This document shows positions 39,382 through 62,764 of a stretch of DNA of 64,000 bases, in pieces; the stretch's first letter is position 1; the number at the start of each line of letters is the position of its first letter. The notes below the pieces were generated by a model. It was not told the origin of the DNA and did no database searches. It saw only the letters and a program-made list of their open reading frames with translations. The DNA lies in the IMG/VR virus record IMGVR_UViG_3300042561_000692, positions 1 through 64,000 of that record. One strand, 5' to 3'. The translations under genes and the position numbers were made by a program. This stretch comes from a virus.

Positions 39382-39410
39382 AGAGGGGTTGCATAAACTC
39401 CTCTTTTTTT
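39382..39410 (+). terminator. Intrinsic terminator before the glycan island
   Basis: AGAGGGGTT pairs with AACTCCTCT (one G-T) around GCATA, followed by seven T. It ends the tRNA/micro-gene unit. Confidence 0.9.
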
Positions 39411-39417
39411 GTATAAT
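39389..39417 (+). promoter_or_regulatory. Sigma70 promoter of the glycan island, overlapping the terminator
   Basis: TTGCAT (39389-39394) spans the loop of the terminator hairpin. After 17 bases TATAAT follows (39412-39417). The gmd ATG is 22 bases further on. The same design is seen at 53762. Confidence 0.72.
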
Positions 39418-39438
39418 AATATAAAAAGTATTTTGTAT

Positions 39439-40440
39439 ATGAAAGTTGCTTTAATCACTGGTATTACAGGACAAGATGGATCTTATCTTGCTGAACTTCT
39501 TTTGGAAAAAGGATATGAAGTTCATGGAATTATTCGTAGAAGTTCTCTTATCAATACTGATAGAATTGATCACATTTATTCCCAATTGAAACTTCATTAT
39601 GGTGATTTGTCTGATGCTACTAATTTAATTAGAATTATCCAAGAAGTTCAACCTAATGAAATCTATAATCTTGGTGCTCAAAGTCATGTAAAAGTTTCTT
39701 TTGAAATGCCAGAGTTTACTGGACAAGTTGATGGACTTGGGACTCTTCGTATTCTTGAAGCAGTTAGATTGCTTAGATTGGAAAATAAAACTAGAATCTA
39801 TCAGGCATCTACATCTGAACTATATGGATTAGTTCAAGAGATTCCTCAAAGAGAAACCACTCCATTTTATCCTCGTTCACCTTATGGTGTTGCTAAAATT
39901 TATGGATATTGGATTGTAAAAAACTATAGAGAATCTTATGGGATGCACGCAAGTTCAGGCATTTTGTTTAATCATGAATCTCCAAGACGTGGTGAAACAT
40001 TTGTGACTAGAAAAATTACTCTTGGTCTTTCTAATATTCAAAAAGGAAATCAAGATTGTCTTTATCTTGGCAATCTAAATGCTAAAAGGGATTGGGGACA
40101 TGCTAAAGACTTTGTAGAAGCAATGTGGTTGATGCTCCAGCAGGATACTCCTGATGACTATGTGATTGCTACTGGTAAACAATATTCAGTCAAACAGTTT
40201 GTAGAAGAATCTGCACCATACTTTGGAATGGATATTGTGTGGAGTGGTGAAGGTCTTGATGAAGTTGGTATTGATAATAATAGTCAAAGGATAGTCATTA
40301 GAGTTGATCCTAAATATTTTAGACCTGCTGAAGTTGAAACTTTGTTAGGTGATGCCTCTAAGGCAAAGGAACAATTAGGTTGGGAACCTAAAACTTCATT
40401 TACAGAATTGGTTGAGGATATGTGTAAAAATGGACTTTGA
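39439..40440 (+). CDS. gmd: GDP-mannose 4,6-dehydratase
   Basis: The 333-residue short-chain dehydrogenase turns GDP-mannose into GDP-4-keto-6-deoxymannose, the branch point to GDP-fucose, GDP-colitose and others. The NADP motif GITGQDG is at 8-14, the Tyr-Lys pair is in [11 protein letters not shown] near 145-155, and the family-specific [15 protein letters not shown] follows near 175-189. I chose ATG 39439; the frame is open upstream. It heads the island and overlaps fcl by 11 bases. Confidence 0.96.
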
Positions 40441-41374
40441 TAGTAAAATTTTTGTAGCAGGACATAGAGGGCTTGTTGGTTCTGCGTTAGTTAGAAAACT
40501 TAGAGCACAAGGATATGAAAATATTCTTGCAGTTGGGAAAGATGTTGTAGATCTTACTGATGCTGAAGAAGTTAATTGTTTTTTTAAAGTAAAAAAACCA
40601 GAATATGTTTTTCTTGCTGCAGCAAAAGTAGGTGGGATTGGATATAATAAAGAATATCCTGCAGACTTCATTAGGGAGAATCTTCAAATTCAAACTAATG
40701 TAATTGATGCTGCTCATAGATATGGATGCAAAAAACTTTTGTTTCTTGGATCTGCTTGCATTTATCCTAAACATGCGCCAGTTCCTATTAAAGAAGAATA
40801 TTTGATGACTGGTCCTCTTGAAGAAACTAACATTTCATATTCCTTAGCAAAGATTGCTGGGTATATGATGTGTAAAAAATATACAGAACAATATGGAATG
40901 GATACTGTTTCTGTAATGCCTAATAATCTTTATGGGATTAACGATAATTTTAATATTTCTCAGTGCCATGTAATTCCAAGTTTTATCAATAAGTTTATTA
41001 CTGCAAAAGAAAAGAAACTATCATCAGTTACCTGTTTTGGTGATGGTAGTCCAACCAGAGAATTTTTATTTTCTGATGATCTTGCTGATGGACTGGTCTT
41101 TTTAATGAACAATTATAATGACCCAGAAATCATTAACATTGGTCCTGATAGAGAAGTGAGTATTAAAGAACTCTCTGAACTTGTTGCTAAATTAGTTGGA
41201 TATGAAGGGGAAATTATTTGGGATACCACAAAACCAAATGGAACTCCTAGACGTGCACTTGATAATTCTAAAATGAATTCTATTGGGTGGAAATCATCCA
41301 CATCTCTTGAAGATGGATTGAAGACTACTATTGATTGGTTTTTTGAGAATAGGAGTAAGTATGCAAGGGTATAG
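40430..41374 (+). CDS. fcl: GDP-L-fucose synthase / ColC-like epimerase-reductase
   Basis: A 314-residue epimerase-reductase with GHRGLVGSA near residues 11-19, GSACIYP near 103-109 with the acid-base Cys, and [10 protein letters not shown] with the Tyr-Lys pair. It resembles Fcl (WcaG), which makes GDP-L-fucose. ColC, which makes GDP-L-colitose, belongs to the same family and cannot be told apart by eye. The start ATG 40430 overlaps gmd. The next gene is ColD-like, so the colitose reading is real. Confidence 0.92.
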
Positions 41375-42521
41375 ATGGCCACTTATGAAAAACACTTTAT
41401 CCTTTATGGATAGAGTTAAACTTGCAAAATTTGTTCTCACTTCTGACAAATTTACTCAAGGAAAAAAAGTTCAAGAGTTTGAGGATGCTTGGTCCAATTG
41501 GATTGGTTCTAAACACTCTTTATTTGTAACTTCTGGTAGCACTGCAAACTTTCTTTTAGTTGCTGCTGTGATTGAAAAGTATGGATTGAAACCTGGAGAT
41601 AAAGTTATTTTACCTGCATGTACATGGGTTACAAATATCAATCCCATTTTTCAATTAGGACTTACTCCAATTTTTTGTGATATTAACCTTCAAAATTATA
41701 GTTTTGATATTGGTAATTTGGAAAGAATATCTGAACAACATCCAGATATTAAAATGGTATTTGTCACACACCTTTTGGGTATTCCTGCTGACAACACCAA
41801 GTATCAAGAGATTTTCCCAAATGCAATTATTTTAGATGATGTTTGCGAATCTCATGGATGTACTGATTGGGATGGCAATAAAGTTGGTTCTAAAAGTTTA
41901 GGAGCAACCTTTAGTTTTTACTTTGGACATCACATGTCTACTATTGAAGGTGGAATGATTTCCACTAATGATAGTGAACTTTATGATCTAATGAAACTGA
42001 AAAGATCTCATGGTTTAGCAAGAGTGTCTGACAACTTTGATTCTTATATCAACAAAAATCCTGAAATTGAAAAGTCATTTTTATTTGTAACTGATGGATA
42101 TAACTTTAGAAATACTGAACTTGCTGCAGTTCTTGGTCTATCCCAACTAAAACGACTTGATAAGTTTATTAAAATAAGAAGAGATAATTATTTTAAATTT
42201 CTTGGGGTAGTTTATGAAAATAAAAATTTTTATGCAATCCAACCAAGTTTAGGTAATAGTTGTTTTTGTTTACCATTTATTTGTAAAACAAAAGAAATTA
42301 AACAAAATTTAATTAAACTTTTTGATAAGTATTCTATTGAATATAGACCTATAGTTGGTGGTAATCTTTTAAGACAACCATACCTCAATTACAATGTAGA
42401 GTGCTCAGAAGATATTTTGAATGTTGATATTGTCCACGAAAATGGAATATACATAGGTAACAGTCAATTTGTTTCTAGCAAAGAGATTGAAATTATTAAA
42501 AAAATTATTGGAGAATTGTAA
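41361..42521 (+). CDS. ColD-like PLP-dependent sugar 3-dehydratase
   Basis: A 386-residue DegT/DnrJ-fold protein (start ATG 41361, AGGAG nine bases upstream). In sugar aminotransferases the PLP Lys sits in an F-x-x-x-K motif; here the site reads FSFYFGHHMSTIEGG with His at 190-191. That Lys-to-His change defines ColD, GDP-4-keto-6-deoxymannose 3-dehydratase. SGSTAN (58-63), DDVCESHG (159-166), IEYRPIVGGN and NGIYIGN also match ColD from memory. It takes the product of Gmd and would lead to colitose. It overlaps fcl by 14 bases. Confidence 0.85.
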   Translation: MQGYRWPLMKNTLSFMDRVKLAKFVLTSDKFTQGKKVQEFEDAWSNWIGSKHSLFVTSGSTANFLLVAAVIEKYGLKPGDKVILPACTWVTNINPIFQLGLTPIFCDINLQNYSFDIGNLERISEQHPDIKMVFVTHLLGIPADNTKYQEIFPNAIILDDVCESHGCTDWDGNKVGSKSLGATFSFYFGHHMSTIEGGMISTNDSELYDLMKLKRSHGLARVSDNFDSYINKNPEIEKSFLFVTDGYNFRNTELAAVLGLSQLKRLDKFIKIRRDNYFKFLGVVYENKNFYAIQPSLGNSCFCLPFICKTKEIKQNLIKLFDKYSIEYRPIVGGNLLRQPYLNYNVECSEDILNVDIVHENGIYIGNSQFVSSKEIEIIKKIIGEL

Positions 42522-42862
42522 TGAATTTTGGGGAATTAATTGAACAGTGTATTAAAGAAACTGTTGATAGGGTTCTTTTTTCTGGGAAAGAAATTTCAGA
42601 TATTGAATATGTAGAAACTGATAATCTTGGAGAAGTAGTTGAAAAACTTTCTATTCTTCACATTAGAACATGGATGCTTGAAGATGCCATTCAAGAAGCA
42701 AAGACTGACTCAGAAATTGCAGAATTAAAAAGAAAGATTGATATTTGCTTTAAAGTAAAAAGGCCACGTTTGGTTCAAGCAATTAATCTTCTTGTAGATA
42801 ATGCAATTGCTCAGAATAAGACTTTAAGAGAAGATTCTGTAAAATTATATAAGGGTGTCTAG
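42521..42862 (+). CDS. Small helical protein of glycan clusters (DUF4254-like)
   Basis: The 113-residue protein has a TWMLEDAI segment near residue 50 and IAELKRKID then KRPRLVQAINLLVD near 67-92. This pattern recalls DUF4254, small helical proteins found in polysaccharide clusters. The match is tentative. It starts in a TAATG overlap with the ColD-like gene and its end overlaps the next. Confidence 0.55.
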   Translation: MNFGELIEQCIKETVDRVLFSGKEISDIEYVETDNLGEVVEKLSILHIRTWMLEDAIQEAKTDSEIAELKRKIDICFKVKRPRLVQAINLLVDNAIAQNKTLREDSVKLYKGV

Positions 42863-42863
42863 T

Positions 42864-43544
42864 GTGGAGAATAGATACATCTACCACCATCTTGGATTGG
42901 GGGATCATATTATTTGCAATGGAATGATTAGACATTTTTGCGAATTGTATGATCACATAACATTATTTTGCTATACTCACTATGCAAAAAATGTTAAGTA
43001 TATGTTTAGAGATTTAAAAAATCTCATAATACTTGATTTTAAAACAGAACCAGAAGTTGTATCTTATATTACTCAGAATAATCTGCAGAAAGATTTAATT
43101 AGAATAGGATTTGAAAACCTACATCAACACTTAACATACACTACTTTTGATAAAGCTTTTTATACATTAGCAGGATTGGATTTTGATATTAGATTTTCTA
43201 AATTTTATTTACAAAGAGATTATTCTAGAGAGGAAGAATTAGTAAAAACATTAAACCCAACTGGAGAACCATATGCTTTTGTTCATGATGACCCAGATAG
43301 GGGATATAGTATTGACATAGATTGTGACTACAATATCATTAGGAATGATAAAAGATTTTTACTATTTGATTACATTAGTTTATTGGAAAATGCAGAACAG
43401 ATACATTTGATGCAATCTTCTTTTAAAGATATGATTAATTCTTTCAAAATGAATAAACCAAAAATATATCAGCATAATTATGTTAGAAACTATCCTAAAT
43501 CAATACACTCAGTAGGATTAAATTACATAGAGGAAATTAATTGA
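42864..43544 (+). CDS. GT-B-like glycosyltransferase
   Basis: About 226 residues. The N-terminal HHLGLGDHIICNGMIRHF resembles the nucleotide-domain start of heptosyltransferase-like GT-B enzymes, and IHLMQSSFKDMI near the end resembles their nucleotide-binding site. It is shorter than typical GT-B enzymes, so one domain may be reduced. GTG 42864 starts right after the previous stop; GTG 42855 is an alternative. Sugar specificity is unknown. Confidence 0.62.
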   Translation: MENRYIYHHLGLGDHIICNGMIRHFCELYDHITLFCYTHYAKNVKYMFRDLKNLIILDFKTEPEVVSYITQNNLQKDLIRIGFENLHQHLTYTTFDKAFYTLAGLDFDIRFSKFYLQRDYSREEELVKTLNPTGEPYAFVHDDPDRGYSIDIDCDYNIIRNDKRFLLFDYISLLENAEQIHLMQSSFKDMINSFKMNKPKIYQHNYVRNYPKSIHSVGLNYIEEIN

Positions 43545-44224
43545 TGAAAATACTTTATTGCATTAAAACTACAGAGAGGTATCAAAATAGAAGAGATTCT
43601 ATTAAAGATACTTGGTTAAAAAACGTTGATGATTATCTTTTTTATTCAGACCATGAAGATTTGGATAATAGTATAATTAAAGTTTGTGAAGATTCTTCTT
43701 ATGGTGGATTAGAAGAAAAGGGTGTAAATTTTTATAATCTGCTCAAAGACATAGAAATTCAAAGTGAAAAAAATGTTTTGGAGTATTATGATTGGTTATT
43801 TTTAGTAGATGATGATACTTTTGTTAATACTAAAAATTTAAATGATTTTGCTCAAGGTGCTGATGAGAGTAAAGGTTATGGGGAAATATTTACATATGAA
43901 ACACATCCAGACAATCCTATGTTTAGTTCTCCATCATTTAAAAAATCATATAAATGGTACTCTGGTGGAGCTGGTTTGTTAGTCAGCACAAAGACTATTA
44001 AAAGTATAAATGAATTTATTAATTACAATACTAGACATGATGATGTTAGTATTGGTCTTACTTTTTTTAATAATGGAGTTGAGTTAGTAGATTCTAATAA
44101 TTTTAATTCACAACCTCCAGAATTCTGGGGAGAAACAGATTTGGATATAAAAAATAAAATTACATATCATCACATAGATGAAAATAAAATGTTAGATCTT
44201 TATAAAGTTTTGCAAAATGACTGA
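43544..44224 (+). CDS. Fringe-like (GT31-type) glycosyltransferase
   Basis: The 226-residue protein begins KILYCIKTTERYQNRRDSI with DTWL after it, then has WLFLVDDDTFVN near residues 87-98 (the metal-binding DDD), WYSGGAGLLVS near 144-154 and DDVSIGLTF near 170. This order is that of Fringe/beta-1,3-galactosyl- or GlcNAc-transferases, better known from eukaryotes, in which Fringe extends O-fucose. The neighbourhood of fucose genes makes that intriguing. TGATG overlap with the previous gene. Very AT-rich. Confidence 0.8.
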   Translation: MKILYCIKTTERYQNRRDSIKDTWLKNVDDYLFYSDHEDLDNSIIKVCEDSSYGGLEEKGVNFYNLLKDIEIQSEKNVLEYYDWLFLVDDDTFVNTKNLNDFAQGADESKGYGEIFTYETHPDNPMFSSPSFKKSYKWYSGGAGLLVSTKTIKSINEFINYNTRHDDVSIGLTFFNNGVELVDSNNFNSQPPEFWGETDLDIKNKITYHHIDENKMLDLYKVLQND

Positions 44225-45092
44225 AGTTAAAAAAATATGTTTTTTTAATCATTACCATAATGGTGATTTGTTCAACAGCAAATCTTTTATAGAAGAAATT
44301 ATTTCTAATATAAACTTAAAATATTACTATGCACATTCAAATCAATCTATAGTTCTTTCTGATTTAAATGCAGAATATTTAGAAATCCCAAACATTTCCC
44401 ATTCTGAAAAATTTTTAATAGACAATGATATTTTGTACGTTAATACTTGGATAGGATGTTATTTTGATTCTAATAAACCTTTTAATGGAGAATGTACTTT
44501 AAGATTTTCTTATCAAATGTTTGGAGAAATATATGAATATCTTAATTCATTATTTTTGTCTGATTTGAAATTAAAGTCCATTGAGGAATATTTTTCTTTT
44601 GTGGATTATTCTAAGTTTAATCTTTTGAATGTAGATGAGTTTGTAAATCAATTTCTTCAAAAGAAAATTTTATTTTCTAATGGTCCATGTTTATCTGGAC
44701 AATGTAATTACTATGGAGACATGTCAAGTATTATTGAAACATGTGCTAAAAAAAATGAAGATAAAATTTTTGTAGTAACGCACAAATTTAATACTGATGT
44801 TCAAAATATAAAATTTACAGATGATATTTTAAATTTAAATAGATGTGACTTAAATGAAATTTCTTATATTTCAACTTTTTGTGATATAATTATTGGTAGA
44901 AATTCTGGACCATTTTGTTTTTCTATGACAAAAGAAAATGTCTTAAATCCACAAAAAACATTTTATGCTTTTGGGAATAAAGAGACTGATTGTTTTTGTT
45001 ATGGAGTTGATATTAATTGTGAATTTGTTTTTGAATACTTTGAAAGTTTGGAGCAAATTGAAGAAACCATTTTATCTTTAGTTAAAGTATGA
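44217..45092 (+). CDS. Putative GT-B-like glycosyltransferase
   Basis: A 291-residue protein with HYHNGDLFNSKSFIEEI at the N-terminus and IIGRNSGPFCFS near residue 225, like the donor-site region of GT-B enzymes that test for a nucleotide sugar. No family can be named. The gene is extremely AT-rich and overlaps both neighbours by a few bases. Confidence 0.6.
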   Translation: MTEVKKICFFNHYHNGDLFNSKSFIEEIISNINLKYYYAHSNQSIVLSDLNAEYLEIPNISHSEKFLIDNDILYVNTWIGCYFDSNKPFNGECTLRFSYQMFGEIYEYLNSLFLSDLKLKSIEEYFSFVDYSKFNLLNVDEFVNQFLQKKILFSNGPCLSGQCNYYGDMSSIIETCAKKNEDKIFVVTHKFNTDVQNIKFTDDILNLNRCDLNEISYISTFCDIIIGRNSGPFCFSMTKENVLNPQKTFYAFGNKETDCFCYGVDINCEFVFEYFESLEQIEETILSLVKV

Positions 45093-45796
45093 TTAGCATT
45101 GTTACTGGTACACTCAATAGGGGACCACTCCTTCAAAGATTGATAGAAAATACAGTTGAAGCAAACGAGAAACTTGAACTAGTATTGGTTGATGGTGGAA
45201 GCACTGATGGGACCATTGAGTATATTAAAGAAGAAAATCATCCAAGAATTAAACTAATTGAAGTTGGGCAAAGAAGTCCTTATCCACACTTTATGAATCT
45301 TGGAATACAAAATGCATCACATGACATAGTTTGTCAGTGGAATGATGATGTTCTTTTATCTAATGATTGGGAAGAAATATTTCAAGAAATAGATGATGAG
45401 CATGATTTTTATTTGTTCAATTGGAAATATGGCAATGTTTCTGATATGACTGATGAAACTTGGTTATCTGGCGATGACCATCAGAATAATTGGTGTTTAC
45501 TTAATAATAAACCTGATGGTGAGATTGTTATGAATTATGGATTATATAAAAAGAAAATCTTTAGAGAAGTTGGAATGTATAATTTTGAGTATAGATATTA
45601 TTGCGCTGATGGTGATATGGCTGATAGGGCATATGAGTTTGGGTATAAAGTAAAAACACTGAAGAATATAAAAATTTGTTCTTTAATAGCAGATAAAGTA
45701 GCACAACATTTTTCTGGGGACCAAGAAATATACCAAAAGAATTTAAGTTTACATAAACAAAAAGTATTGCCAGATTCACTTGAGTTTTTATTATAA
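45089..45796 (+). CDS. GT2-family glycosyltransferase
   Basis: The 235-residue GT-A protein starts ISIVTGTLNRGPLLQRLI, then LVLVDGGSTDGT near 32-43 and CQWNDDVLLSNDW near 80-92 (metal-binding DD). It moves a sugar from a nucleotide donor with inversion. Acceptor is unknown. Overlaps previous gene by ATGA and abuts the next. Confidence 0.85.
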   Translation: MISIVTGTLNRGPLLQRLIENTVEANEKLELVLVDGGSTDGTIEYIKEENHPRIKLIEVGQRSPYPHFMNLGIQNASHDIVCQWNDDVLLSNDWEEIFQEIDDEHDFYLFNWKYGNVSDMTDETWLSGDDHQNNWCLLNNKPDGEIVMNYGLYKKKIFREVGMYNFEYRYYCADGDMADRAYEFGYKVKTLKNIKICSLIADKVAQHFSGDQEIYQKNLSLHKQKVLPDSLEFLL

Positions 45797-46605
45797 TGGA
45801 AAAGTATAAAATTAATTTAGTAGGTGATTCCTTTACACATCTTACTGGTGGTAATAAAGGATATTCTGTGGCAGGAAAAGAATCTAAGTTTGTTCAATGG
45901 GTAAAAGATGATTCTCTTCCTGAAACAGTTTATGTTGATGCTTGGATCAATCAAGCATTTACTGATAAAATTTCTGGAATTAAATATGCTTGGTTATTAG
46001 AGTCCAAGTGTGTAACACCAGACATTGTAGATGAGGTTAAATTCAATTATGAAGAATATTTTAAAGTATTCAAATATATTTTTACTCATAATAAAGAACT
46101 ATTAAATCTTGATGATAGATTTAAGTGGTGTCCTGCTAATGGTTTTTGGATTAAAGAACCAAAGATTTATGAGAAAAGTAAAATGATCTCCATGATCTCA
46201 TCCAATAAAAATTTTACAGAAGGTCATTTAAAAAGGTTAGAGTGGTTATCGAGGATTAGTGATCAGGTAGATGTCTATGGTAGAGGATTTAATGAAATAG
46301 AATTCAAAGAAGAAGGTCTATGTGATTATATGTTTTCTGTTGTAATTGAAAATGGATTTTATGAGTCGTACTTCACTGAGAAGATTCTTGATTGTTTCGC
46401 TACTGGTACTATTCCTGTTTATTTGGGATCTCCAGACATTAAAAACTATTTTAATGAAGATGGAATAATTTTCTTAACTGATGAATTTGACGTATCTGAA
46501 GAAATATATTATAGTAAAATGGATGCTATTAAAGATAATTTGAAAAGGATAGAAGAAATTGAAGTCCTTGAAGATTTTATCTACAAACAATATTTGGAGA
46601 AATAA
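45796..46605 (+). CDS. GT10-like alpha-1,3-fucosyltransferase
   Basis: A 269-residue protein whose C-terminal half has the GT10 signature: FSVVIENGFYESYFTEKI followed by LDCFATGTIPVYLGSP (near residues 175-210). GT10 enzymes transfer fucose from GDP-fucose. The N-terminal part is shorter than in bacterial fucosyltransferases. A GDP-fucose (or colitose) supply is encoded 5 kb upstream. It starts on the last base of the previous stop. Confidence 0.82.
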   Translation: MEKYKINLVGDSFTHLTGGNKGYSVAGKESKFVQWVKDDSLPETVYVDAWINQAFTDKISGIKYAWLLESKCVTPDIVDEVKFNYEEYFKVFKYIFTHNKELLNLDDRFKWCPANGFWIKEPKIYEKSKMISMISSNKNFTEGHLKRLEWLSRISDQVDVYGRGFNEIEFKEEGLCDYMFSVVIENGFYESYFTEKILDCFATGTIPVYLGSPDIKNYFNEDGIIFLTDEFDVSEEIYYSKMDAIKDNLKRIEEIEVLEDFIYKQYLEK

Positions 46606-47235
46606 ATGAGCACATTAGTTTATATTGGAACCAATGAAGGTGATGGACTAAAAGAATACATTAATCTGTATGATAGTGTTTATGCATTTGAACCTGATCC
46701 TGAAATTTTTAATATTTTGAAAAATAGGTTTGCAGATTGTGAACACGTAACTTTTATTAATGCAGCTTGCTCAGAAACAGAAGGTGTTAAAACACTTTAT
46801 GTAACTGAAAATAGACATTCAACTTCCCTATCAGAATTGTCTGAATTTTCTTTGACTAAAGGATTTTCTGGAGGTAAAGCATCATTTAAAACCTTTGATG
46901 TCAATACCATTAATCTTAATAATTTTCTTAGTGAAAATGGCATTGATCATATTGATACTTTGATTACTGATTGTCAAGGGAGTGACCTTTCAATTCTTAC
47001 TACAATTAAATCTTTTATTGATGATGGAAAAATTAGTGAGATCTTTTGCGAAACACATGCAAATTCTGTAGAACTTTATGAAGGTCTTTATAATCAGTAT
47101 GATGGATTTAAGGAATTACTTTCTCATAATTATGAAGTAAAAGATTTCTATCTTGATGGAAAACTTATGTCTAAAGATGGAGAACCTTTTGTTGAGTGGG
47201 ATACTCATTGGATTTTGAAAAATGATATCATTTAA
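46606..47235 (+). CDS. FkbM-family methyltransferase
   Basis: The 209-residue protein has a SAM-binding start LVYIGTNEGDGL and VYAFEPDPEIFNIL near 24-37, FINAACSE near 48-55, and LITDCQGSDLSIL near 117-129, the FkbM pattern. These enzymes O-methylate sugars and other metabolites. It begins on the base after the GT10 stop and overlaps the fucosyltransferase behind it by 14 bases. It may cap the glycan. Confidence 0.87.
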   Translation: MSTLVYIGTNEGDGLKEYINLYDSVYAFEPDPEIFNILKNRFADCEHVTFINAACSETEGVKTLYVTENRHSTSLSELSEFSLTKGFSGGKASFKTFDVNTINLNNFLSENGIDHIDTLITDCQGSDLSILTTIKSFIDDGKISEIFCETHANSVELYEGLYNQYDGFKELLSHNYEVKDFYLDGKLMSKDGEPFVEWDTHWILKNDII

Positions 47236-48022
47236 TCAATTAGGAAATTTAGGACGACTTGGAAATCAAATGTTTCAGTATGCCTCTTTGAGAGGTATTG
47301 CTGCGAATAGGGGATTTGATTTTTGTATTCCACCAAAAAGTTATTTTGGTGTTGTTGACCCTAATGTAAAAAACTCTAATGTTGATATTCATAATACATT
47401 TAACATTTCTCATACACAAACTGAAGTAACACATTATAAATCTGTTGAAGAATCTTTATATGGATTTGATGAAGAACTTTTCAACAACTGCGAAGATGAA
47501 ATAGATTTGGTTGGATACTTCCAGTCAGAGAAATACTTTAAACACATTGAAGAAGACATTAGAAAGGACTTTACATTTTCAAAAGAACTTGTAAAAAATT
47601 GTTCTGATTTTATTGATGAGATTGATTCTAATAGAGAAGTTATTTCATTGCATATCAGACGTGGTGATTACTTAAGTTTGCAATCATTTCATCCTACGCC
47701 ACCAATAGAGTATTATGAGGAAGCATTAAAACAACTTCCAAATTCTCCAGTTCTTATTTTTTCAGATGACCCTGAATGGTGTTTAAACCAACCTTTGTTT
47801 GAGTCTGATAGATTTTTAATTTCCGAATTAAATACTGCTGACTTTGATATGTGTATAATGACCATGTGTAAATATCACATTATGGCTAACTCATCATTCT
47901 CTTGGTGGGCATCTTGGTTATCTAAAAGTGAAAATGTTATTGCTCCAAAGGTTTGGTTTGGACCTTCATTGTCCCATAAAGATACTTCTGATTTATATTG
48001 TGATGGGTGGATAAAACTATGA
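47222..48022 (+). CDS. GT11-family alpha-1,2-fucosyltransferase
   Basis: The 266-residue protein has GRLGNQMFQYASLRGIA near 10-26, GYFQSEKYF near 98, the GDP-fucose-binding SLHIRRGDYL near 139-148, and MANSSFSWWASWL near 220-232. These are the motifs of GT11 fucosyltransferases. Together with the GT10-like enzyme the island has two unrelated fucosyltransferase families. It overlaps its neighbours at both ends. Confidence 0.92.
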   Translation: MISFNQLGNLGRLGNQMFQYASLRGIAANRGFDFCIPPKSYFGVVDPNVKNSNVDIHNTFNISHTQTEVTHYKSVEESLYGFDEELFNNCEDEIDLVGYFQSEKYFKHIEEDIRKDFTFSKELVKNCSDFIDEIDSNREVISLHIRRGDYLSLQSFHPTPPIEYYEEALKQLPNSPVLIFSDDPEWCLNQPLFESDRFLISELNTADFDMCIMTMCKYHIMANSSFSWWASWLSKSENVIAPKVWFGPSLSHKDTSDLYCDGWIKL

Positions 48023-48669
48023 GAACTTTGAATGATTATTTTGACAAGATTTATTGTATTAATCTTGATGATAGAAAAGATAGAATGGTAGATACTGTAA
48101 AGCAATTCCATAAACATAACCTTTGGGTGGAGAGAGTTCCTGGAATTAAAGGTTCAGATATGAACCTTGATTTTCCTCCAGAAATTAAAGAAGGTGCAGT
48201 TGGATGTGCACTGTCTCAATTGTTTACACTTAAGTTAGCAAAGCAAGTTAATGCGAAAAAGTTTTTACTCCTTGAGGATGATATTGAATTTGATGAAGAT
48301 TTAAATAGCAAGTTCAATAAGTATTATGCTGAAGTTCCAAATGATTGGGATATGTTGTATCTTGGTGGGCAGCATTTTCATGGAATGAATCTTACCCAAG
48401 TATCTGAACATATTTACAGATGTGAATATACTTTGGCAGCACATTCTGTTGCTTTTAAGTATACAGTTTATGATAGGTTTATTAATAAACTTGTAGATAT
48501 TACCAAACCCTGTGATGTTCATTATGCAGAATCTCATAAAGAAATTAATGCATATGTTATTGTTCCTCACTTAACATGGCAAAGAGAAAGTTATTCTGAT
48601 ATTGAAAAATTTAATGTAGATTATTCTTTCCTGAAGGATCATAGATATCCACAGTGGGGCAAGCCATGA
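48019..48669 (+). CDS. GT25-family glycosyltransferase
   Basis: The 216-residue protein starts with DKIYCINLDDRKDRM (GT25 first strand), has GAVGCALSQLFTLKLA near 60-75 and FLLLEDDIEFDEDL near 84-97, and a DMLYLGGQ segment near 114-121. GT25 enzymes act in LPS and on collagen. Donor unknown. ATG 48019 overlaps the GT11 stop. Confidence 0.87.
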   Translation: MRTLNDYFDKIYCINLDDRKDRMVDTVKQFHKHNLWVERVPGIKGSDMNLDFPPEIKEGAVGCALSQLFTLKLAKQVNAKKFLLLEDDIEFDEDLNSKFNKYYAEVPNDWDMLYLGGQHFHGMNLTQVSEHIYRCEYTLAAHSVAFKYTVYDRFINKLVDITKPCDVHYAESHKEINAYVIVPHLTWQRESYSDIEKFNVDYSFLKDHRYPQWGKP

Positions 48670-49400
48670 CTAAAGTATTATCATATTGTGTATATGGAGA
48701 TGTTCCAAAATATACATTGGGTGCTATTAGAAATGCAGAAACTAAAGATGATTATTTTCCAGATTGGGAAATGAGAATGTATCATGATGATTCTGTTCCT
48801 GTTGATATTTTGAAACAACTTGAAAAATTAAATGTAAATTTAATTGATATAACTAAAGAAATATCAGGCATTTATTATCCAACAAAAGATGAATCAAAAA
48901 CATATGGTATGTTTTGGAGATTTGTTCCTGCTGGAGATGACACTGTAGATTATTTTGTCTCAAGAGACACTGATTCAAGATTTTCTGAACGAGAAGTTTT
49001 AGCAGTTAATGAATGGATAGATTCTGAACAACCATTTCATATTATTAGGGAACATCCGTGGGGTCATACTTGGGTAATCAACGGTGGTATGTGGGGTTGT
49101 GAGGGGGGATTTATAGAAAACATAGACCAATCAATCAAGGACTATTTGCAGACAAGTAAATGGGCACATGAGCAAGCTGCAGATCAATGGTTTCTCAAAG
49201 AGTGTATATATCCTGTTGTAAAGGATTATGCGTTTATTACAGATGAGTTTATAAATTATGAAGGAAGATCTGTATCTATTAAAAGAGATAGAGCATTGGA
49301 TGATTTTGCTTTTATTGGAGAACCATTTGATGAAAATGAAATCTACGATCAAAGTCATAGAGATTTAATACAACAATACTATAATCAACTTAAAAGATGA
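48666..49400 (+). CDS. GT-A-like glycosyltransferase
   Basis: A 244-residue protein with VLSYCVYGDVPKYTLGAI at the start, a DYFVSRDTDSRFSERE segment near 95-110 with a DxD-like metal site, and WVINGGMWGCEGG near 139-151. The plan is that of small GT-A enzymes of viral and bacterial glycan clusters. Family number uncertain. ATGA overlap with the GT25 gene. Confidence 0.68.
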   Translation: MTKVLSYCVYGDVPKYTLGAIRNAETKDDYFPDWEMRMYHDDSVPVDILKQLEKLNVNLIDITKEISGIYYPTKDESKTYGMFWRFVPAGDDTVDYFVSRDTDSRFSEREVLAVNEWIDSEQPFHIIREHPWGHTWVINGGMWGCEGGFIENIDQSIKDYLQTSKWAHEQAADQWFLKECIYPVVKDYAFITDEFINYEGRSVSIKRDRALDDFAFIGEPFDENEIYDQSHRDLIQQYYNQLKR

Positions 49401-50275
49401 AAAGTTTAGTTACTGGGGGTGCTGGTTTTATTGGTTCCAATCTTGTCAACAGGTTGGTTGAAATAGGACATGATGTTATTGTTTTGGATAGAGTGTATCC
49501 AAAAGTAAAAAATAAAAATGCACAATACTATCTTCAAGATTTGTCAGAAAGATATACAAAGTATCTTCACTTATTTGAAGGTGTAGACAATGTATTTCAT
49601 TTAGCTTCAGAGGTTTCTATTCCATATTGTGTGGAGAAGCCAAATGAAAGTATGTCTAATAATGTATTATCTACTATGAACTCTTTGGAGTGTTCAAGAA
49701 TTCATAATATTAAGAAGTTTATATTTTCCTCAACTTCTGCTGTTTATGGAAATACCTTGTTTATTCCAAGCATAGAGACAAACCAAGTTCATTGTATGAA
49801 TACATATTCAATATCAAAGTATACTGGTGAACAACTTTGTAAAATGTATTATGAGTTGTATGGTATCAAAACAATAATCTTTAGATACTTTAATGTTTAT
49901 GGTGAAGGTAATCCCAAAACAGGTCAATATGCTCCAGTAATGTCCATCTTTGAAAATCAAAAACGCAATAGTGAACCATTAACTATTATTGGAGATGGGT
50001 ATCAGACAAGAGACTTCGTTCATGTGTCTGATGTAGTTTTGGCAAACATCCTTGCTTCACAAAGAGAGCTAAAAAATTATGGTGAAGTTTATAATGTAGG
50101 CACTGGAAAAGGTATAGAAATCAAAGAAATAGCAGACCTTATTTCACATTATCAAATGAGTATTCCAGAACGTCCTGGAGAGGTATTGCATTCTAGAGCA
50201 TCTATTGATAAAATTAAGAATGATTTGGGGTGGAATTACAGTATAAATGTTTTGGACTGGATTAAAAATAAATGA
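49397..50275 (+). CDS. NAD-dependent sugar epimerase/dehydratase
   Basis: The 292-residue extended SDR has GGAGFIGSN at 7-15, SSTSAVYG near 113-120 and YSISKYTGE near 137-145 with the Tyr-Lys pair, RYFNVYGEG and GDGYQTRDFVHVSDV. It resembles UDP-glucose or UDP-GlcNAc 4-epimerases (GalE/WbpP type). The exact sugar cannot be read. It would supply UDP-galactose-type donors. Overlaps both neighbours by four bases. Confidence 0.87.
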   Translation: MKSLVTGGAGFIGSNLVNRLVEIGHDVIVLDRVYPKVKNKNAQYYLQDLSERYTKYLHLFEGVDNVFHLASEVSIPYCVEKPNESMSNNVLSTMNSLECSRIHNIKKFIFSSTSAVYGNTLFIPSIETNQVHCMNTYSISKYTGEQLCKMYYELYGIKTIIFRYFNVYGEGNPKTGQYAPVMSIFENQKRNSEPLTIIGDGYQTRDFVHVSDVVLANILASQRELKNYGEVYNVGTGKGIEIKEIADLISHYQMSIPERPGEVLHSRASIDKIKNDLGWNYSINVLDWIKNK

Positions 50276-51054
50276 CTGATACATCTACAGTGAGAAAAAA
50301 ACTTAAAGGGATGGGTCCAATTCTTTGGATTAATCTTGATACTGAAACTAACAGACAAGAACATATGACAAGTTTGTTAGATTTCTATGAGATTCCTCAT
50401 ACAAGGATTTCTGCCATTGATGCTAGGGGTGATAATGATGTTAGCGATCTTTTGGTAGGAAGATACCCAGAAATGATTACTCAAGGTGAACTTGGTTGTA
50501 CAATGTCGCACCTAAAAGCAATTAAATATTTTTATGAAGAAACAGATTTAGATTACATTATTATATGTGAAGATGATATTGTGTTTGATACAGTCCCTTA
50601 TTGGCCTTTCACTTGGAGTGGATTTATTTCTCATGCTCCATATGATTGGGATGTATTACAATGTGCAATTACCAGCACTAAAAATTTGAGAGCAAATCTT
50701 CATCCAAGATTAATTAATGATTTTTGTGCAGCATTTTATATAATTACAAGACATCATGCAGCAAAGATTCTGAAGTTGCACGTAAGGGGTGATAAGTTTA
50801 GGTTGGACCAAAAATTGAAACCAAGAGCAACATCTGAAGAAATTATCTACAATACAGGCAGAACATATTCAATGCCTTTGTTTACTTATAGATATGACTT
50901 TGACTCTGGTATTCATCAAGACCATATTGAAATTTTCCATAAAAATAATGTAGAGGGAGTTTTAAACTTTTGGAAAAGTAGATCTCCAGAAATGGGAACA
51001 CAACAATTATTAGATTATGATTACTATGGTTTTTGGGAACCTTTGGTGGGTTGA
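50272..51054 (+). CDS. GT25-like glycosyltransferase, second copy
   Basis: A 260-residue protein with ILWINLDTETNRQEHM near 17-32, ELGCTMSHLKAIKYF near 80-94 and YIIICEDDIVFD near 103-114, the GT25 plan. It is more distant from the gene at 48019 than a simple duplicate would be. It is the last gene of the island. A composite promoter starts inside its stop codon. Confidence 0.82.
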   Translation: MTDTSTVRKKLKGMGPILWINLDTETNRQEHMTSLLDFYEIPHTRISAIDARGDNDVSDLLVGRYPEMITQGELGCTMSHLKAIKYFYEETDLDYIIICEDDIVFDTVPYWPFTWSGFISHAPYDWDVLQCAITSTKNLRANLHPRLINDFCAAFYIITRHHAAKILKLHVRGDKFRLDQKLKPRATSEEIIYNTGRTYSMPLFTYRYDFDSGIHQDHIEIFHKNNVEGVLNFWKSRSPEMGTQQLLDYDYYGFWEPLVG

Positions 51055-51147: not shown

Positions 51148-52629
51148 ATGAATTTTCTCAAACAACTAATGCTCGTGCCTGTTGCACTGGGTCTTGTTGC
51201 TCCTGCTGTGAATGCTGCAGAACTCAATAATGAGGATGTCAACAAGTATGCCTCAGTACAACAAGTTACCAGCATTACACAATTCTCTGATATCCAACCC
51301 ACTGATTGGGCTTATCAGGCACTTGGCAATCTTGTAGAACGTTATGGTTGTGTGGCAGGTTATCCTAATGGCACCTTTGTTGGTCGTCAGGCAATGACTC
51401 GCTTTGAAGCAGCTGCCCTTCTCAATGCTTGCTTGGATCGTGTAACTGAAACTACTGATGAACTCAAAAAACTCCTTGCTGAGTTTGATGCAGAACTCAC
51501 AGTGATTACTTCTCGTGTAGATGGTCTTGAAAGTAAAGTTGGGCAACTTCAAGCAACCCAATTTTCTACTACAACCAAACTTAAGGGTGAAGCTAGCTTT
51601 GTTCTTGGTGGAGTTCCTGGTTTAAAAACAAATGATGGTGGAAACGTTGGCAACACCGCATTTAACTATGACCTTCGTCTGAACTTTGATACTTCATTCA
51701 CAGGTAAGGATTTGCTTCGTACTCGTATTCGTTCTGGTAACTTCAGCAGTGATCCTTTTGGTTCAAGTTCTTCTCTGTTCAAACTGGACAAGGCAGAAAC
51801 TTATGAGAACCAAGCAGTCATTGATCGTCTTTACTATCAGTTCCCAGTTACTAACAGTGTAACTCTGACTGCTGGTCCTCTGGTTCGTAACACAGAGATG
51901 GCTTGGATTCCTTCTGCTTATAAGTCAGATATCCTTGACTTCTTCCAACTTGGTGGTGCCTCTGGTGTCTATAACAAGGCAACTGGTGCTGGTTTTGGTG
52001 CTCAGTGGAAACAACCTACTCAAAAAGGTAAAGGTGGATTTCTTGTTAACCTGAACTATGTTGCTCAAAATGGCGACAATAGTGATACTGGTGTGTTCAA
52101 TGCAGATGGTGCTCTGAACTTTATGGGTCAAGTAGGTTATCGTGCTCCTCAGTGGGGTGCTGCTGTAGCTTACAGGTATGGTACTGAAGGTTCTCGTGTT
52201 CGTACCTTCAACTCTCTTGGTGGTGGTTCTGCTGCCCTTGTGTCTGGTCAATCCAGCAACAGCATTGCTTTAAATGCTTACTGGCAACCACAAGATTCAG
52301 GTATTGTTCCCTCAGTTTCTGTGGGTTATGGATACAATGAAATTGATGGTACTGGTTCTAAAAAGGGTGCTACCAATTCTGATTCCTGGTTCGTTGGGCT
52401 TCAGTGGTCTGATGTGTTTGCTAAGGGTAATTCTGCTGGAGTTGCTTTTGGTCAACCTGGAAATTCTGAGAACATTAGTGATGATGCTCAAATGCTTGAA
52501 ATTTTCTACAAGTATAGAGTGTCTGATAACATCAGCATCACTCCTGCTCTCTTCTACATCAGCAACAACCAAAGATTCCAAAATGAATCTGCTTGGGGTG
52601 GCGTAGTCCAGACAACCTTCAAGTTCTGA
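51148..52629 (+). CDS. Cyanobacterial-type outer-membrane porin (SLH + OprB-like barrel)
   Basis: A complete 493-residue porin. Residues 1-24 are a signal peptide ending VNAAEL. An SLH domain (about 44-100: FSDIQPTDWAYQAL, RYGCVAGYPNGTF, MTRFEAAALLN) follows, then a coiled coil, then a long beta barrel that ends with aromatic VVQTTFKF, the outer-membrane targeting end. This is the plan of the major porins of marine picocyanobacteria. The gene is more GC-rich than the island next to it. It should alter nutrient passage through the host outer membrane. Confidence 0.92.
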   Translation: MNFLKQLMLVPVALGLVAPAVNAAELNNEDVNKYASVQQVTSITQFSDIQPTDWAYQALGNLVERYGCVAGYPNGTFVGRQAMTRFEAAALLNACLDRVTETTDELKKLLAEFDAELTVITSRVDGLESKVGQLQATQFSTTTKLKGEASFVLGGVPGLKTNDGGNVGNTAFNYDLRLNFDTSFTGKDLLRTRIRSGNFSSDPFGSSSSLFKLDKAETYENQAVIDRLYYQFPVTNSVTLTAGPLVRNTEMAWIPSAYKSDILDFFQLGGASGVYNKATGAGFGAQWKQPTQKGKGGFLVNLNYVAQNGDNSDTGVFNADGALNFMGQVGYRAPQWGAAVAYRYGTEGSRVRTFNSLGGGSAALVSGQSSNSIALNAYWQPQDSGIVPSVSVGYGYNEIDGTGSKKGATNSDSWFVGLQWSDVFAKGNSAGVAFGQPGNSENISDDAQMLEIFYKYRVSDNISITPALFYISNNQRFQNESAWGGVVQTTFKF

Positions 52630-52650
52630 TAATCACTCCCAAAATGAGTG

Positions 52651-52678
52651 AAAGCACCCCCCAAAGGGGTGCTTTTTT
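52651..52678 (+). terminator. Intrinsic terminator after the porin gene
   Basis: AAAGCACCCC pairs with GGGGTGCTTT around CCAAA and is followed by a T-run. A smaller CACTC/GAGTG hairpin (52634-52650) precedes it. Confidence 0.95.
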
Positions 52679-52697
52679 CTTAACCAAATCTTAGTTG
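52679..52697 (+). promoter_or_regulatory. PHO-box-like direct repeat upstream of pstS
   Basis: CTTAACCA, three bases, CTTAGTTG: two 8-base half-sites at 11-base spacing, the cyanobacterial PhoB layout (CTTAACCT-N3 repeats). The first half is close to consensus, the second weaker. pstS starts 48 bases downstream. Cyanophage pstS is known to respond to host PhoB. Confidence 0.72.
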
Positions 52698-52745
52698 ATT
52701 TTATATTTTCTTCAAATAGAATTATCTTGTAGTTATTCACTTTTT

Positions 52746-53711
52746 ATGAAACTCAAACATTTTATTGCTATTAGTCTTGCTCTTGCACCTACTGCTGCAT
52801 TTGCTGGAGTTGACCGTATCGCTGTTGCTGGTGCTACTTTCCCAGCAACTATCTATCAACGCTGGTTTGCTGCTCTTGCCAAGTCTGGTGGACCAAAAGT
52901 AAACTATCAGTCAGTTGGTTCTGGTGCTGGTCGTAAGGCATTTATTGACCAGACAGTAACCTTCGCAGCAACTGATGATCCTATCTCTGATAAGGACAGA
53001 GCAAAGGTTTCTCGTGGTGTAGTTCAAATTCCTACCGTTGGTGGAACGATTGCTATTGCCTACAACAATCCTGCTTGTAAACTGAAACTCACCCAGAAGC
53101 AAGTAGTATCTGTCTTTATGGGTTCTATTAACAACTGGAAGGAACTTGGATGCCCTGCTGGTAAGATTTCTGTGGCACACCGTTCTGATGGTTCTGGAAC
53201 CACTGCTGCCTTTACTGAATCACTTCAATCTTTCTCCAAAGAATGGACTCTTGGTGTTGGTAAGTCTGTAAATTGGAAAGTTGGTGTTGGTGGTAAAGGT
53301 AATGAAGGCGTTGCCGGTGTTCTCCAAACTACTCCTGGTTCAATTGGTTATCTTAATCAATCTTTTGTGAAGGGTAATCTGAAAGCAGCGGCAGTTCAGA
53401 ACAAGGTTGGTGAATTCGTTCTCCCCAATTATACTTCTGGCGCCAAAGCACTGAATGGTATTAAGTTGGATAAAAATCTTGCCGGACAAAATCCCAATCC
53501 TTCTGCCAGTGGTGCTTATCCTATTGCCACTTTGACTTATGTTCTTGCCTATAAGACTGGTAATGGTCCTAAAGCAGCATCTATCAGACAGGCAATTAGT
53601 TATATGCTGAGCGATAAGGCACAGGCACTTGCTGATGATCTTGGATATGTTCCCCTTAAGGATGAAATCCAATCACGAGCACAGGCTGCTGTGAAACTTA
53701 TTGGTGAATGA
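52746..53711 (+). CDS. pstS: Periplasmic phosphate-binding protein PstS
   Basis: The 321-residue protein has a signal peptide (residues 1-21, ending AAFA), then the PstS core: GAGRKAFIDQTVTFAATDDP near 60-78, HRSDGSGTT near 144-152 for phosphate binding, and TTPGSIGYLNQ. It delivers phosphate to the host Pst transporter during infection. ATG 52746 is the only start with a signal peptide. It lies between two terminators with a PHO-box-like site, so it is its own unit. Confidence 0.95.
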   Translation: MKLKHFIAISLALAPTAAFAGVDRIAVAGATFPATIYQRWFAALAKSGGPKVNYQSVGSGAGRKAFIDQTVTFAATDDPISDKDRAKVSRGVVQIPTVGGTIAIAYNNPACKLKLTQKQVVSVFMGSINNWKELGCPAGKISVAHRSDGSGTTAAFTESLQSFSKEWTLGVGKSVNWKVGVGGKGNEGVAGVLQTTPGSIGYLNQSFVKGNLKAAAVQNKVGEFVLPNYTSGAKALNGIKLDKNLAGQNPNPSASGAYPIATLTYVLAYKTGNGPKAASIRQAISYMLSDKAQALADDLGYVPLKDEIQSRAQAAVKLIGE

Positions 53712-57315: not shown

Positions 57316-57442
57316 TGTTAAGGAATGAAATATTTCTTAACCTTCTCTAACCGAGATCATGAGAAGTAAAGCATCTCTCATACCCATGATGGAGGGTGTC
57401 ATGGGAAATACTGTACCTGTTCAGTCCCCCTGAACCATACTT
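57316..57442 (+). other. Structured psbA 5' leader
   Basis: Three hairpins are visible: GTTAAGGAA with TTTCTTAAC (57317-57341), CCCATGA with TCATGGG (57383-57405), and GTTCAG with CTGAAC (57419-57435). No start codon frame is kept through them. The leader could control psbA message stability or translation. Confidence 0.6.
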
Positions 57443-60604: not shown

Positions 60605-61636
60605 ATGTCATTAGCATATGTGATTGGTTCTGGAACTGCTGGTGCTACATCAGCAAGGATACTCAAAGATAATGGATGGGACGTAGAGGTCTTTGAAACC
60701 AGAGAATATCTTTCTGGCAATTGTTATGACTATGTTGATGAAAAAACAGGATGTGTAATTCATGCACATGGACCTCATGCTATCCATACAGATAATGATC
60801 GTGTTTGGGATTGGTTGAATCAATTTGCAGTTTTCAATAATTTTTCTGTTGAAGTATGGGCAAACACAAGTCTTGGAAAAATTCCTATTCCATATAATGA
60901 CAACTCAGATAAAATTATTGGCAGAAGATTATCTGACACTGAAATTAAGGAATTAGTATTCAGAGATTATTCTGAAAAAATGTGGGGAGTTAAGTTAGAG
61001 GAACTTCCTATGGGCATTTTGAATAGACTTCCTATAAGAAAAAAAGGTTCTAATGGGTCTTTCACTCAACAAAAGTATCAAGGTCTACCTAAGAATGGAT
61101 TTGTGGACATGTTCAAGAATATCTTTGATGATATTCCAGTTCATTTAAATGTATCAAAAGATGAATGGCGAACACTCAAAGACAAATGTGACTTGTTAGT
61201 TTTTACTGGAAAGGTTGATAATTATTTTGATTATCAGTATGGAAAGTTATCTTATAGGTCATTGAACTTTGAACATGTCTATTGTCCTAAGACAGTGTAT
61301 ATCCAACTTAATGAATGCAACAGAAATAATGAATGGAATCGTGCTATTGACCACTCTTATTGGTACAATCAAGATGTTGAAACTACAGTAGTTACAAGAG
61401 AATATCCAGTAGAACATATTGAAGGATTGAATAATCCATATTATCCTATGATTTTTGGAAAGTATCTGGAACAGTTTGAACAATATAAACCATTAATGCA
61501 AGCAGAAAAAAATACAATTTTTGTTGGAAGAACTGCTACTTACAAATACTTGACTATAGATCAGACTATAGCAAGAACAGCAAACAAACTCAAAAGAATG
61601 GGATTTGTTGATAGAATACTTACACCTGAATTATGA
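60605..61636 (+). CDS. glf: UDP-galactopyranose mutase
   Basis: The 343-residue FAD enzyme turns UDP-galactopyranose into UDP-galactofuranose. VIGSGTAGATSARIL near 6-20 binds FAD; HAHGPHAIHT near 53-62 and EKMWG near 121-125 are Glf hallmarks, and FVGRTATYKYLTIDQ near 301-315 is the C-terminal FAD region. Galactofuranose is used in surface glycans. It implies a galactofuranosyltransferase nearby; the genes on both sides are candidates. The epimerase at 49397 could supply UDP-galactose. Confidence 0.92.
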   Translation: MSLAYVIGSGTAGATSARILKDNGWDVEVFETREYLSGNCYDYVDEKTGCVIHAHGPHAIHTDNDRVWDWLNQFAVFNNFSVEVWANTSLGKIPIPYNDNSDKIIGRRLSDTEIKELVFRDYSEKMWGVKLEELPMGILNRLPIRKKGSNGSFTQQKYQGLPKNGFVDMFKNIFDDIPVHLNVSKDEWRTLKDKCDLLVFTGKVDNYFDYQYGKLSYRSLNFEHVYCPKTVYIQLNECNRNNEWNRAIDHSYWYNQDVETTVVTREYPVEHIEGLNNPYYPMIFGKYLEQFEQYKPLMQAEKNTIFVGRTATYKYLTIDQTIARTANKLKRMGFVDRILTPEL

Positions 61637-62739
61637 TGAAAAATACGAAAATTTGTTTGAATATGATGGTTGGTAATGAATCTCATATCATTACTAGAGT
61701 TCTTGAGTCTTGCTATAATCACATTGACTATTGGGTTATCCAATGTAATGGCACTGATAATACGCAACAAATTATAGAAAAGTTTTTTGAAGAAAAAAAT
61801 ATTCCAGGATATTGTTATAATGTTGAGTGGCAATATCCTGGTTGGAATAGTGATCATTTAATTCAAGAATGTTATGATGCAAATCACCAGTGTGATTGGT
61901 TGTTTAGAATTGATGCAGATGAAGAACTTTTAGTAGATGATGATTTTGATTGGAGTGTATTTGAAGATACCTCAATTCAATCTTGGGATGTTGTTGCTAC
62001 CACTGGAGATTCATCCTGGTTAAGAAATAGAGTTTGGAATGCTAATTTTTCTTGGAGATTTAAGCACGATAAAAGACATGAGTGTATCATTCTTCCTGGA
62101 TGTGGTCCAACAGGAGAAGAATTTCAAAGAGTTCTTTTGGACAAAGGGTTTAGGCATTTTATCAGAAGTGAAGGAGATACTTATACAAGTCCAACAAAAT
62201 TTGTAGTAGATGCATTAGAACTTGAACAACAGCATGTATCTAAAGGTTCTTTATTGTCAGACCCTTATCATTTCTTTTATATTGGAAAAAGTTATAGCGA
62301 TTGTTATGGTGTAGATGGTCTTCCTTTGGGATATGAACATCAAAAAGAATATGCAAGAAGATGTATTTTTTACTTTACTGAGTATATAAAAAACTTTTAT
62401 AATGGTAATGAGAATGAAATGATATATTATTCTCAATATCTTATAGGTAGTGCTTATAGATTTTGTGGAGAGCATGATATAGCAATTGAAGAGTATATGA
62501 AATGCACCCCACTTTGTTTAAGTAGAAATGAACACTTTTGTGGCCTAATTGAATTGTATTTATATAAAGGTGAGTATGAAAATGCTTATGTCTATGCTTC
62601 TATGTTAATGCAAGAAGACAGAAAAAATCCTTTTCCAAGAATTGGATTTTTGATCCACAATCAATGTTATTATGATACTGGAACATATGTAAAAGTATTG
62701 TTTGATCAAGCAAAAGAAAAGTTAGAATCTATTAGTTGA
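61633..62739 (+). CDS. GT2 glycosyltransferase with helical C-terminal repeats
   Basis: The 368-residue protein has ICLNMMVGNESHIITRVL near 8-25, WVIQCNGTDNTQQII near 34-48 and WLFRIDADEELL near 88-99 (DxD). From about residue 210 it is helical with TPR-like repeats (YLIGSAYRFCGEHDIAIEEY). Such fusions are known in bacterial glycosyltransferases. ATG 61633 overlaps glf; ATG 61636 is equally possible. Confidence 0.82.
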   Translation: MMKNTKICLNMMVGNESHIITRVLESCYNHIDYWVIQCNGTDNTQQIIEKFFEEKNIPGYCYNVEWQYPGWNSDHLIQECYDANHQCDWLFRIDADEELLVDDDFDWSVFEDTSIQSWDVVATTGDSSWLRNRVWNANFSWRFKHDKRHECIILPGCGPTGEEFQRVLLDKGFRHFIRSEGDTYTSPTKFVVDALELEQQHVSKGSLLSDPYHFFYIGKSYSDCYGVDGLPLGYEHQKEYARRCIFYFTEYIKNFYNGNENEMIYYSQYLIGSAYRFCGEHDIAIEEYMKCTPLCLSRNEHFCGLIELYLYKGEYENAYVYASMLMQEDRKNPFPRIGFLIHNQCYYDTGTYVKVLFDQAKEKLESIS

Positions 62740-62764
62740 CATTTTATTATGTGTAATGTATAGT
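62736..62764 (+). promoter_or_regulatory. Sigma70 promoter of the second oxygenase-like gene
   Basis: TTGACA (62736-62741), 17 bases, TATAGT (62759-62764). It overlaps the stop of the previous gene and lies 17 bases before the ATG. Confidence 0.85.

Follow-up and report, generated by a model that had tools for sequence, protein, structure and literature searches.

The 64,000-nucleotide stretch analysed here (hereafter the window) comprises the first 64,000 bases of the 72,078-base virus record IMGVR_UViG_3300042561_000692, and it has the gene complement of a T4-like cyanophage, with a major head protein, UvsX, ribonucleotide reductase and psbA, along with PstS and a ferredoxin-like open reading frame (ORF). 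Between positions 39409 and 51054 of the window lie 15 ORFs, all on the + strand and overlapping or abutting one another (gaps of -44 to 0 from the listed starts), which are therefore read as one operon, the glycan cassette considered in this analysis. The order of its genes is Gmd, Fcl-like, ColD-like, DUF4254-like, U1, Fringe-like, U2, GT2, GT10, FkbM, GT11, GT25, an unassigned gene, an SDR epimerase and a further GT25. Several of the listed TTG and GTG starts probably lie too early.

The two TRANSFERASES are GT10 (45796-46605, 269 amino acids), a GT10 family fucosyl/colitosyltransferase, and GT11 (47222-48022, 266 amino acids), a GT11 family alpha-1,2-fucosyl/colitosyltransferase, with an FkbM-family O-methyltransferase (46606-47235, 209 amino acids) between them. 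The original prediction, made from the DNA letters, had placed both families here with only the FkbM gene in between, and matches to Pfam, TIGRFAM, PHROG and solved folds bear this out, the ORFs being present at these coordinates. The GT10 protein scores 40.1 bits with Pfam PF00852 (cut-off 23.9), and its best sequence match in the PDB is the FucT of H. pylori (PDB identifier 2nzw, E 4.7e-8), its other top relatives being human FUT9 and a glycoprotein 3-alpha-fucosyltransferase. Its residues N186, Y192, E195 and K196, which are invariant in 24 viral sequences, align with N240, Y246, E249 and K250 of the H. pylori enzyme, which we take to be donor-site residues. The first eleven fold matches of its AlphaFold model (predicted local distance difference test, pLDDT, 90) are GT10 structures, led by 2nzw, 2nzy and FUT9; the whole-chain superposition is loose (template modelling score about 0.5), which we attribute to the two domains of GT-B proteins moving relative to each other. 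The GT11 protein scores 93.2 bits with PF01531 (cut-off 23.9), matches PHROG 2644 (E 1.7e-115) and carries the HxRRxDY motif, of which H144, R146, R147 and D149 are invariant in 30 sequences including E. coli WbgN. Searching the PDB by sequence alone turned up chance matches only, and a fold search was needed; the top matches of the GT11 model (pLDDT 91.8) are POFUT1, FUT8, NodZ and plant FUT1, which share the GDP-fucose-binding transferase fold. The FkbM protein is over the cut-off of both PF05050 (43.9 bits, cut-off 22.7) and TIGR01444. The structure prediction and donor-site comparison that had been proposed as a check of the two transferases show folds matching solved fucosyltransferases, with the motif residues kept and none lost, and by sequence the two proteins are confirmed as members of GDP-fucose-type transferase families with intact donor-site motifs. 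The GT10 protein is found at 100% identity in three further IMG/VR contigs (L012-L014), and is thus no assembly accident.

Relatives of GT10 occur in 19 phage records and those of GT11 in 103. The search covered seven complete cyanophage genomes with GT10 (S-SRM01, S-SM2, S-T4, S-SSM7, S-SCSM2R, Sf-FS3 and Sf-CH8), and every one of them has GT11 as well. Among the 88 distinct GT10 genes of the fetched loci, GT11 starts within 800 bp in 30, and it is present in the locus of 50 of the 53 that have at least 8 kb visible downstream. The GT10 and GT11 pair is thus, as these counts have it, a usual feature of cyanophages and nothing exceptional, and the two unrelated families originally noted as lying side by side are an ordinary arrangement. 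One viral locus, which also carries the ColD gene described below, has a tandem pair of GT10 genes (L057:9899-11500). The linkage of donor synthesis to these transferases is optional: among the seven genomes Gmd is over its family cut-off in S-SRM01 only, so that the donor in the other six must be host-derived or another sugar, and heptose-type genes are present in S-SM2, S-T4 and Sf-CH8. In the window, genes for a GDP-mannose-derived deoxysugar do share one operon with the transferases, as had been proposed; the accompanying notion of a self-sufficient glycan is too strong, since no gene for GDP-mannose supply was seen in the window, this precursor must come from elsewhere and six of the seven genomes with both transferases have no Gmd.

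The donor genes open the operon. The first (39409-40440) encodes Gmd, a GDP-mannose 4,6-dehydratase (TIGR01472, 562 bits against a cut-off of 415; PDB identifier 1db3, E 2.7e-149), for which the true start is likely the ATG at 39439, giving the usual MKVALITG beginning, and the second (40412-41374) encodes an Fcl/ColC-like epimerase-reductase, that is, a GDP-L-fucose or GDP-L-colitose synthase. The original prediction of GDP-fucose-type synthesis upstream is right as to these two genes (39409-41374) and missed the third, at 41331-42521. By family the protein encoded there has the DegT/aminotransferase fold, and the annotation of its homologues reads aminotransferase or hypothetical; its best match in the PDB is ColD (PDB identifier 2gms, E 6e-61), ahead of perosamine synthase (PDB identifier 3bn1, E 5e-30). 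ColD and its kin are set apart from aminotransferases by a Lys-to-His change at the pyridoxal phosphate (PLP) lysine, the mark of 3-dehydratases (PMC8987622). The window protein has the motif FGHHMST where ColD has YSHHIAT, with the catalytic His at ColD position 188 present, and all the viral homologues checked at 54% identity or more have the same His, while ArnB, used as an aminotransferase control, and four distant viral relatives have a Lys. About 60 positions, including H188, D159, W88 and R219 (ColD numbering), are invariant across the viral set and E. coli ColD. The protein is thus probably, to judge by these residues, a GDP-4-keto-6-deoxymannose 3-dehydratase. Forty distinct viral ColDs have sufficient upstream sequence; each of them has a Gmd upstream, and 39 stand in the arrangement Gmd-Fcl-ColD, a fixed module.

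A sugar other than colitose, whether a 3,6-dideoxy or a 4-amino sugar made by Gmd and the ColD homologue (GDP-perosamine, for example, if the latter were an aminotransferase), would fit the family fold and the weaker match to perosamine synthase. We consider it quite improbable, since the window protein and all its close viral relatives have a His for the PLP lysine and the Fcl-like reductase adjoins ColD in all but one of the 40 cases; GDP-perosamine synthesis by the DegT protein was itself rejected on account of that replacement. The cysteines of the window protein (positions 97, 116, 172, 177, 311, 313, 318 and 358) do not fit what we take to be the four-cysteine [2Fe-2S] spacing of E1 (E1/SpnQ). 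A second, E1/RfbH-like type of 3-dehydratase (CSFYPAHHxxTxEGG), 32-34% identical to the window protein, occurs together with GT10 and GT11 in loci L021, L022, L024, L026, L044-L048 and L053, and suggests that those phages may make other 3,6-dideoxyhexoses.

Viral ColD appears to be an old family of viruses: its proteins group together in the tree, the only members from the cellular set being two short contigs of metagenome-assembled genomes (MAGs). ColD-type proteins of cells, some of them of Prochlorococcus, are 36-43% identical, the exceptions being four MAG contigs at 52-61%. ColD-type proteins of three Prochlorococcus single-cell genomes (L298, L303 and L305) are 38-39% identical to the phage protein and keep the catalytic His, and the hosts may make 3-deoxy sugars too.

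ColD and ColC together convert the product of Gmd to GDP-L-colitose (PMC8987622), and the presence of ColD in the donor module suggests that the expected product is GDP-L-colitose (3-deoxyfucose) instead of, or besides, GDP-L-fucose. A difucosylated glycan, as originally envisaged, is therefore not supported as stated, the ColD-type 3-dehydratase (41331-42521) predicting GDP-colitose. Several observations nevertheless count against colitose. The ColD-type protein is only 34% identical to the characterised ColD, and the one Fcl-like enzyme of the window shares 44% identity with E. coli Fcl, as against 34% with ColC. Modules lacking ColD have a GT11 beside them at least as often (32 of 39) as modules with ColD do (20 of 33), and genomes that seemingly gained ColD recently (L033, L103, L105, L218 and L222) keep an unmodified Fcl. 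The alternative is that GDP-L-fucose is the sole donor of GT10 and GT11, that the ColD homologue has a different substrate or feeds a minor side branch and that the glycan carries two fucoses; the resemblance to Fcl, the naming of the GT10 and GT11 families for fucose and the Gmd-Fcl pair without ColD in the related phages S-SRM01 and P-SSM2 all speak for it. It has to reckon, however, with a ColD that uses the Gmd product, stands in the near-invariant Gmd-Fcl-ColD order and would be in competition with Fcl over their common intermediate, and with the adjacency of the ColD and ColC genes in the colitose synthesis of E. coli O55, and on balance it appears rather unlikely to us.

The Fcl-like protein itself scores 413 bits with the NCBIfam equivalog NF047922, below the cut-off of 500, which is reached in none of 12 phage records, ColD-less ones included, and the catalytic residues S107, C109, Y136, K140 and H179 of Fcl are all present in it. 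The tree of viral Fcl proteins sorts by the presence of ColD (6 label changes versus 31.8 in shuffles). Two substitutions, S108A (31 of 43) and K283R (34 of 43), mark the ColD-linked Fcl proteins and are each absent from the 53 ColD-less ones, counts that are inflated by shared descent, with Y136, K140 and H179 retained. The recent ColD modules with unmodified Fcl indicate that these substitutions are at most an adaptation and are not required. The epimerase Cys109 is replaced by Thr or Ser in the ColD-linked Fcl-like proteins of L109, L111, L121 and L123 and in none of the 53 ColD-less Fcl proteins. We suggest from these patterns that a viral Fcl lineage may have been recruited as colitose synthase; with a single Fcl-like reductase, the donor pool is possibly colitose, fucose or both. 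The transferases do not settle the choice by their sequence, since WbgN and human FUT2, both of GT11, transfer colitose as well as fucose (PMC11987014). An assignment of donors from the transferase trees was tried and rejected: in the GT10 tree genomes with ColD are interspersed with those lacking it (5 changes versus 7.4 in shuffles), as they are in part in that of GT11 (10 versus 25.5), so that the trees are silent on which transferase uses which donor.

The transferase block appears, from sequence comparison, to stand behind donor modules that are swapped. Locus L253, which has ColD, and locus L249 or phage S-SRM01, which do not, share GT2-GT10-FkbM-GT11-GT11-GT25 at 82.5-83.5% DNA identity over 6.1-6.9 kb, and the modules before this shared block differ, being Fcl-ColD-DUF4254 in L253 and other genes in L249 and S-SRM01; the GT10 proteins of L249, L251 and L253 are separated by very short branches. 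A shared block behind differing modules implies that the transferases are used with either. Tentatively, and with less assurance than we have in the proposal for the window below, cyanophages may own a GDP-colitose pathway, comprising a viral ColD family and an Fcl lineage serving as colitose synthase, and may swap Gmd-Fcl and Gmd-Fcl-ColD beside a conserved, donor-tolerant GT10/GT11 block, the same scaffold being capped with fucose or 3-deoxyfucose.

The operon is preceded by a wcaG RNA (RF01761; 39273-39370, + strand; Rfam 91.8 bits, gathering score 42), a cis-regulatory candidate 5' of the genes that the original prediction had also missed, followed by an intrinsic terminator with a 9-bp stem and a T run and then by TATAAT at 39412-39417 (together 39382-39417, + strand), directly before the Gmd start. 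wcaG RNAs are also found in further phages and viral loci carrying such cassettes, and among 15 wcaG sites an intrinsic terminator follows directly in 13 (1.4% of random windows) and TATAAT follows the terminator in 14 (12.6% of random windows). This trio suggests an attenuator or a terminator-promoter junction. A scan for the CTAAATA late promoter gave no enrichment (7 found versus 16.6 expected). An abiF RNA match was noted in S-SRM01 (L002:1731-1767).

The remaining operon genes encode a DUF4254-like small protein (42521-42862; PF14063, 24.1 bits, under the cut-off of 27), U1 (42855-43544, without family match), a Fringe-like glycosyltransferase (43541-44224; PF02434, 66.5 bits), U2 (44217-45092, without significant family match), a GT2-like glycosyltransferase without transmembrane segment (45089-45796; PF00535, 55.2 bits), a GT25-like glycosyltransferase (48007-48669; PF01755, 41.7 bits), a protein that is glycosyltransferase-like by context (48654-49400, without family match), an NAD-dependent sugar epimerase of the GalE/SDR type (49397-50275; PF01370, 182.7 bits) and, as the last gene, another GT25-like glycosyltransferase (50272-51054; PF01755, 55.9 bits; PHROG 2835, E 2.5e-91).

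From gene content and order, residues, predicted folds and conservation we infer the enzyme products, the donor, the acceptor and the target as follows. Gmd would convert host GDP-mannose to GDP-4-keto-6-deoxymannose, the ColD homologue would strip the C3 hydroxyl, and the single Fcl-like enzyme would carry out C5 epimerisation and C4 reduction to give GDP-L-colitose, and might also yield GDP-L-fucose from Gmd product unused by ColD. The L-sugar would then be attached in two places, by GT10 and GT11, to a glycan whose extension falls to the GT2, Fringe-like and GT25-like enzymes; one hydroxyl would be methylated by FkbM. The best overall explanation, to which we give a probability of about 0.5, is that during infection the products of the phage operon assemble an O-methylated glycan that is soluble and branched, using a colitose-type donor.

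As to the target, hydropathy gives no clear membrane segment for any of the 15 operon proteins (a single borderline window, in ColD, against 85 in the Wzx control), no match to the Wzx flippase family PF01943 was found in the 72-kb record, itself a fragment, and no polymerase or polyprenyl-phosphate transferase is among the annotated ORFs. The lack of membrane segments and of a flippase indicates that the glycan is probably assembled in the cytoplasm. The cassette may instead remodel the lipopolysaccharide (LPS) or another surface glycan of the host, for superinfection exclusion or receptor masking, and not virions, which would be compatible with either donor. The wcaG RNA and the LPS-like gene content would suit such a host-surface role and tell against a virion target; the published readings of similar cassettes (PMC9602691) and of wcaG RNA (PMC2864571) are host exopolysaccharide or LPS, and Prochlorococcus genomes likewise encode ColD-type enzymes. 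Directly after the operon (51148-53711) the phage encodes an OprB-type porin with an SLH domain and a PstS-like phosphate-binding protein, genes that would also be in keeping with a host-surface role. The cytoplasmic features listed above do not favour this role, nor does the position of the S-CAM7 and ACG-2014f cassettes next to or near tail-fibre genes. We regard host-surface remodelling as a serious contender that falls somewhat short of even odds, and cytoplasmic glycosylation of a virion protein as a little more likely, the slight lean being due to the lack of any flippase, polymerase or membrane-bound transferase among the genes seen and to the analogy with chloroviruses, which make their own GDP-fucose and glycosylate their own capsid protein. 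More glycan-type genes, namely a weak GT2-like protein and a GT2-methyltransferase fusion extending beyond the window end, are present at 61633-64000 and L254:1359-2621. The window also has a glutamine riboswitch aptamer (RF01739, 35369-35427) and a PhotoRC-II RNA (57328-57419) immediately upstream of psbA.

Cassettes of this kind are already known, and what sets this one apart is its probable ColD step together with donor modules that appear to be exchanged. The glycan cluster of S-SRM01 (MW015081) has the wcaG RNA, Gmd, Fcl, GT2, GT10-FkbM-GT11, a second GT11 and GT25 in the same order, but is without ColD, in the place of which are SIS, NDP-sugar synthase and NodZ-like genes. S-CAM7 and ACG-2014f, on the other hand, have a contiguous Gmd-Fcl-ColD with GT11 directly after, but no GT10 at the Pfam threshold, and their ColD is annotated as aminotransferase, CDP-sugar dehydrase or hypothetical. 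The colitose O-antigen cluster of E. coli O55 (ColD, ColC and WbgN) likewise combines Gmd, ColD, an Fcl-type reductase and GT11, but has Wzx/Wzy, genes for GDP-mannose supply and a diverged ColC, the phage reductase being nearer Fcl. The chlorovirus PBCV-1 also encodes GDP-L-fucose synthesis (GMD/GMER) and transferases for its capsid glycan; it is a eukaryotic virus for which no ColD step is mentioned, and its glycan was shown chemically (PMC5408694). The cyanophage S-SCSM1 has Gmd, Fcl and three fucosyltransferase annotations, but the passage on them treats them as cell-wall genes, names an O-fucosyltransferase, an alpha-1,2-type and NodZ, and does not mention ColD (PMC9602691). No paper on phage-encoded colitose was found by title and abstract in the open-access literature searched (colitose with phage or Prochlorococcus).

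Few parts of cyanophage genomes vary as much as their glycan cassettes, and we know of no chemical product of any of them. The ColD assignment turns the vague annotation 'aminotransferase' into a checkable prediction, namely that a 3,6-dideoxyhexose should be obtained from ColD carriers such as S-CAM7 and ACG-2014f and none from P-SSM2 and S-SRM01. If true, the annotation would be corrected in about 50 public phage records, the location of the glycan, on the virion or on the host, would be revealed, and cyanophages would be seen as viruses that choose fucose or colitose via module exchange.

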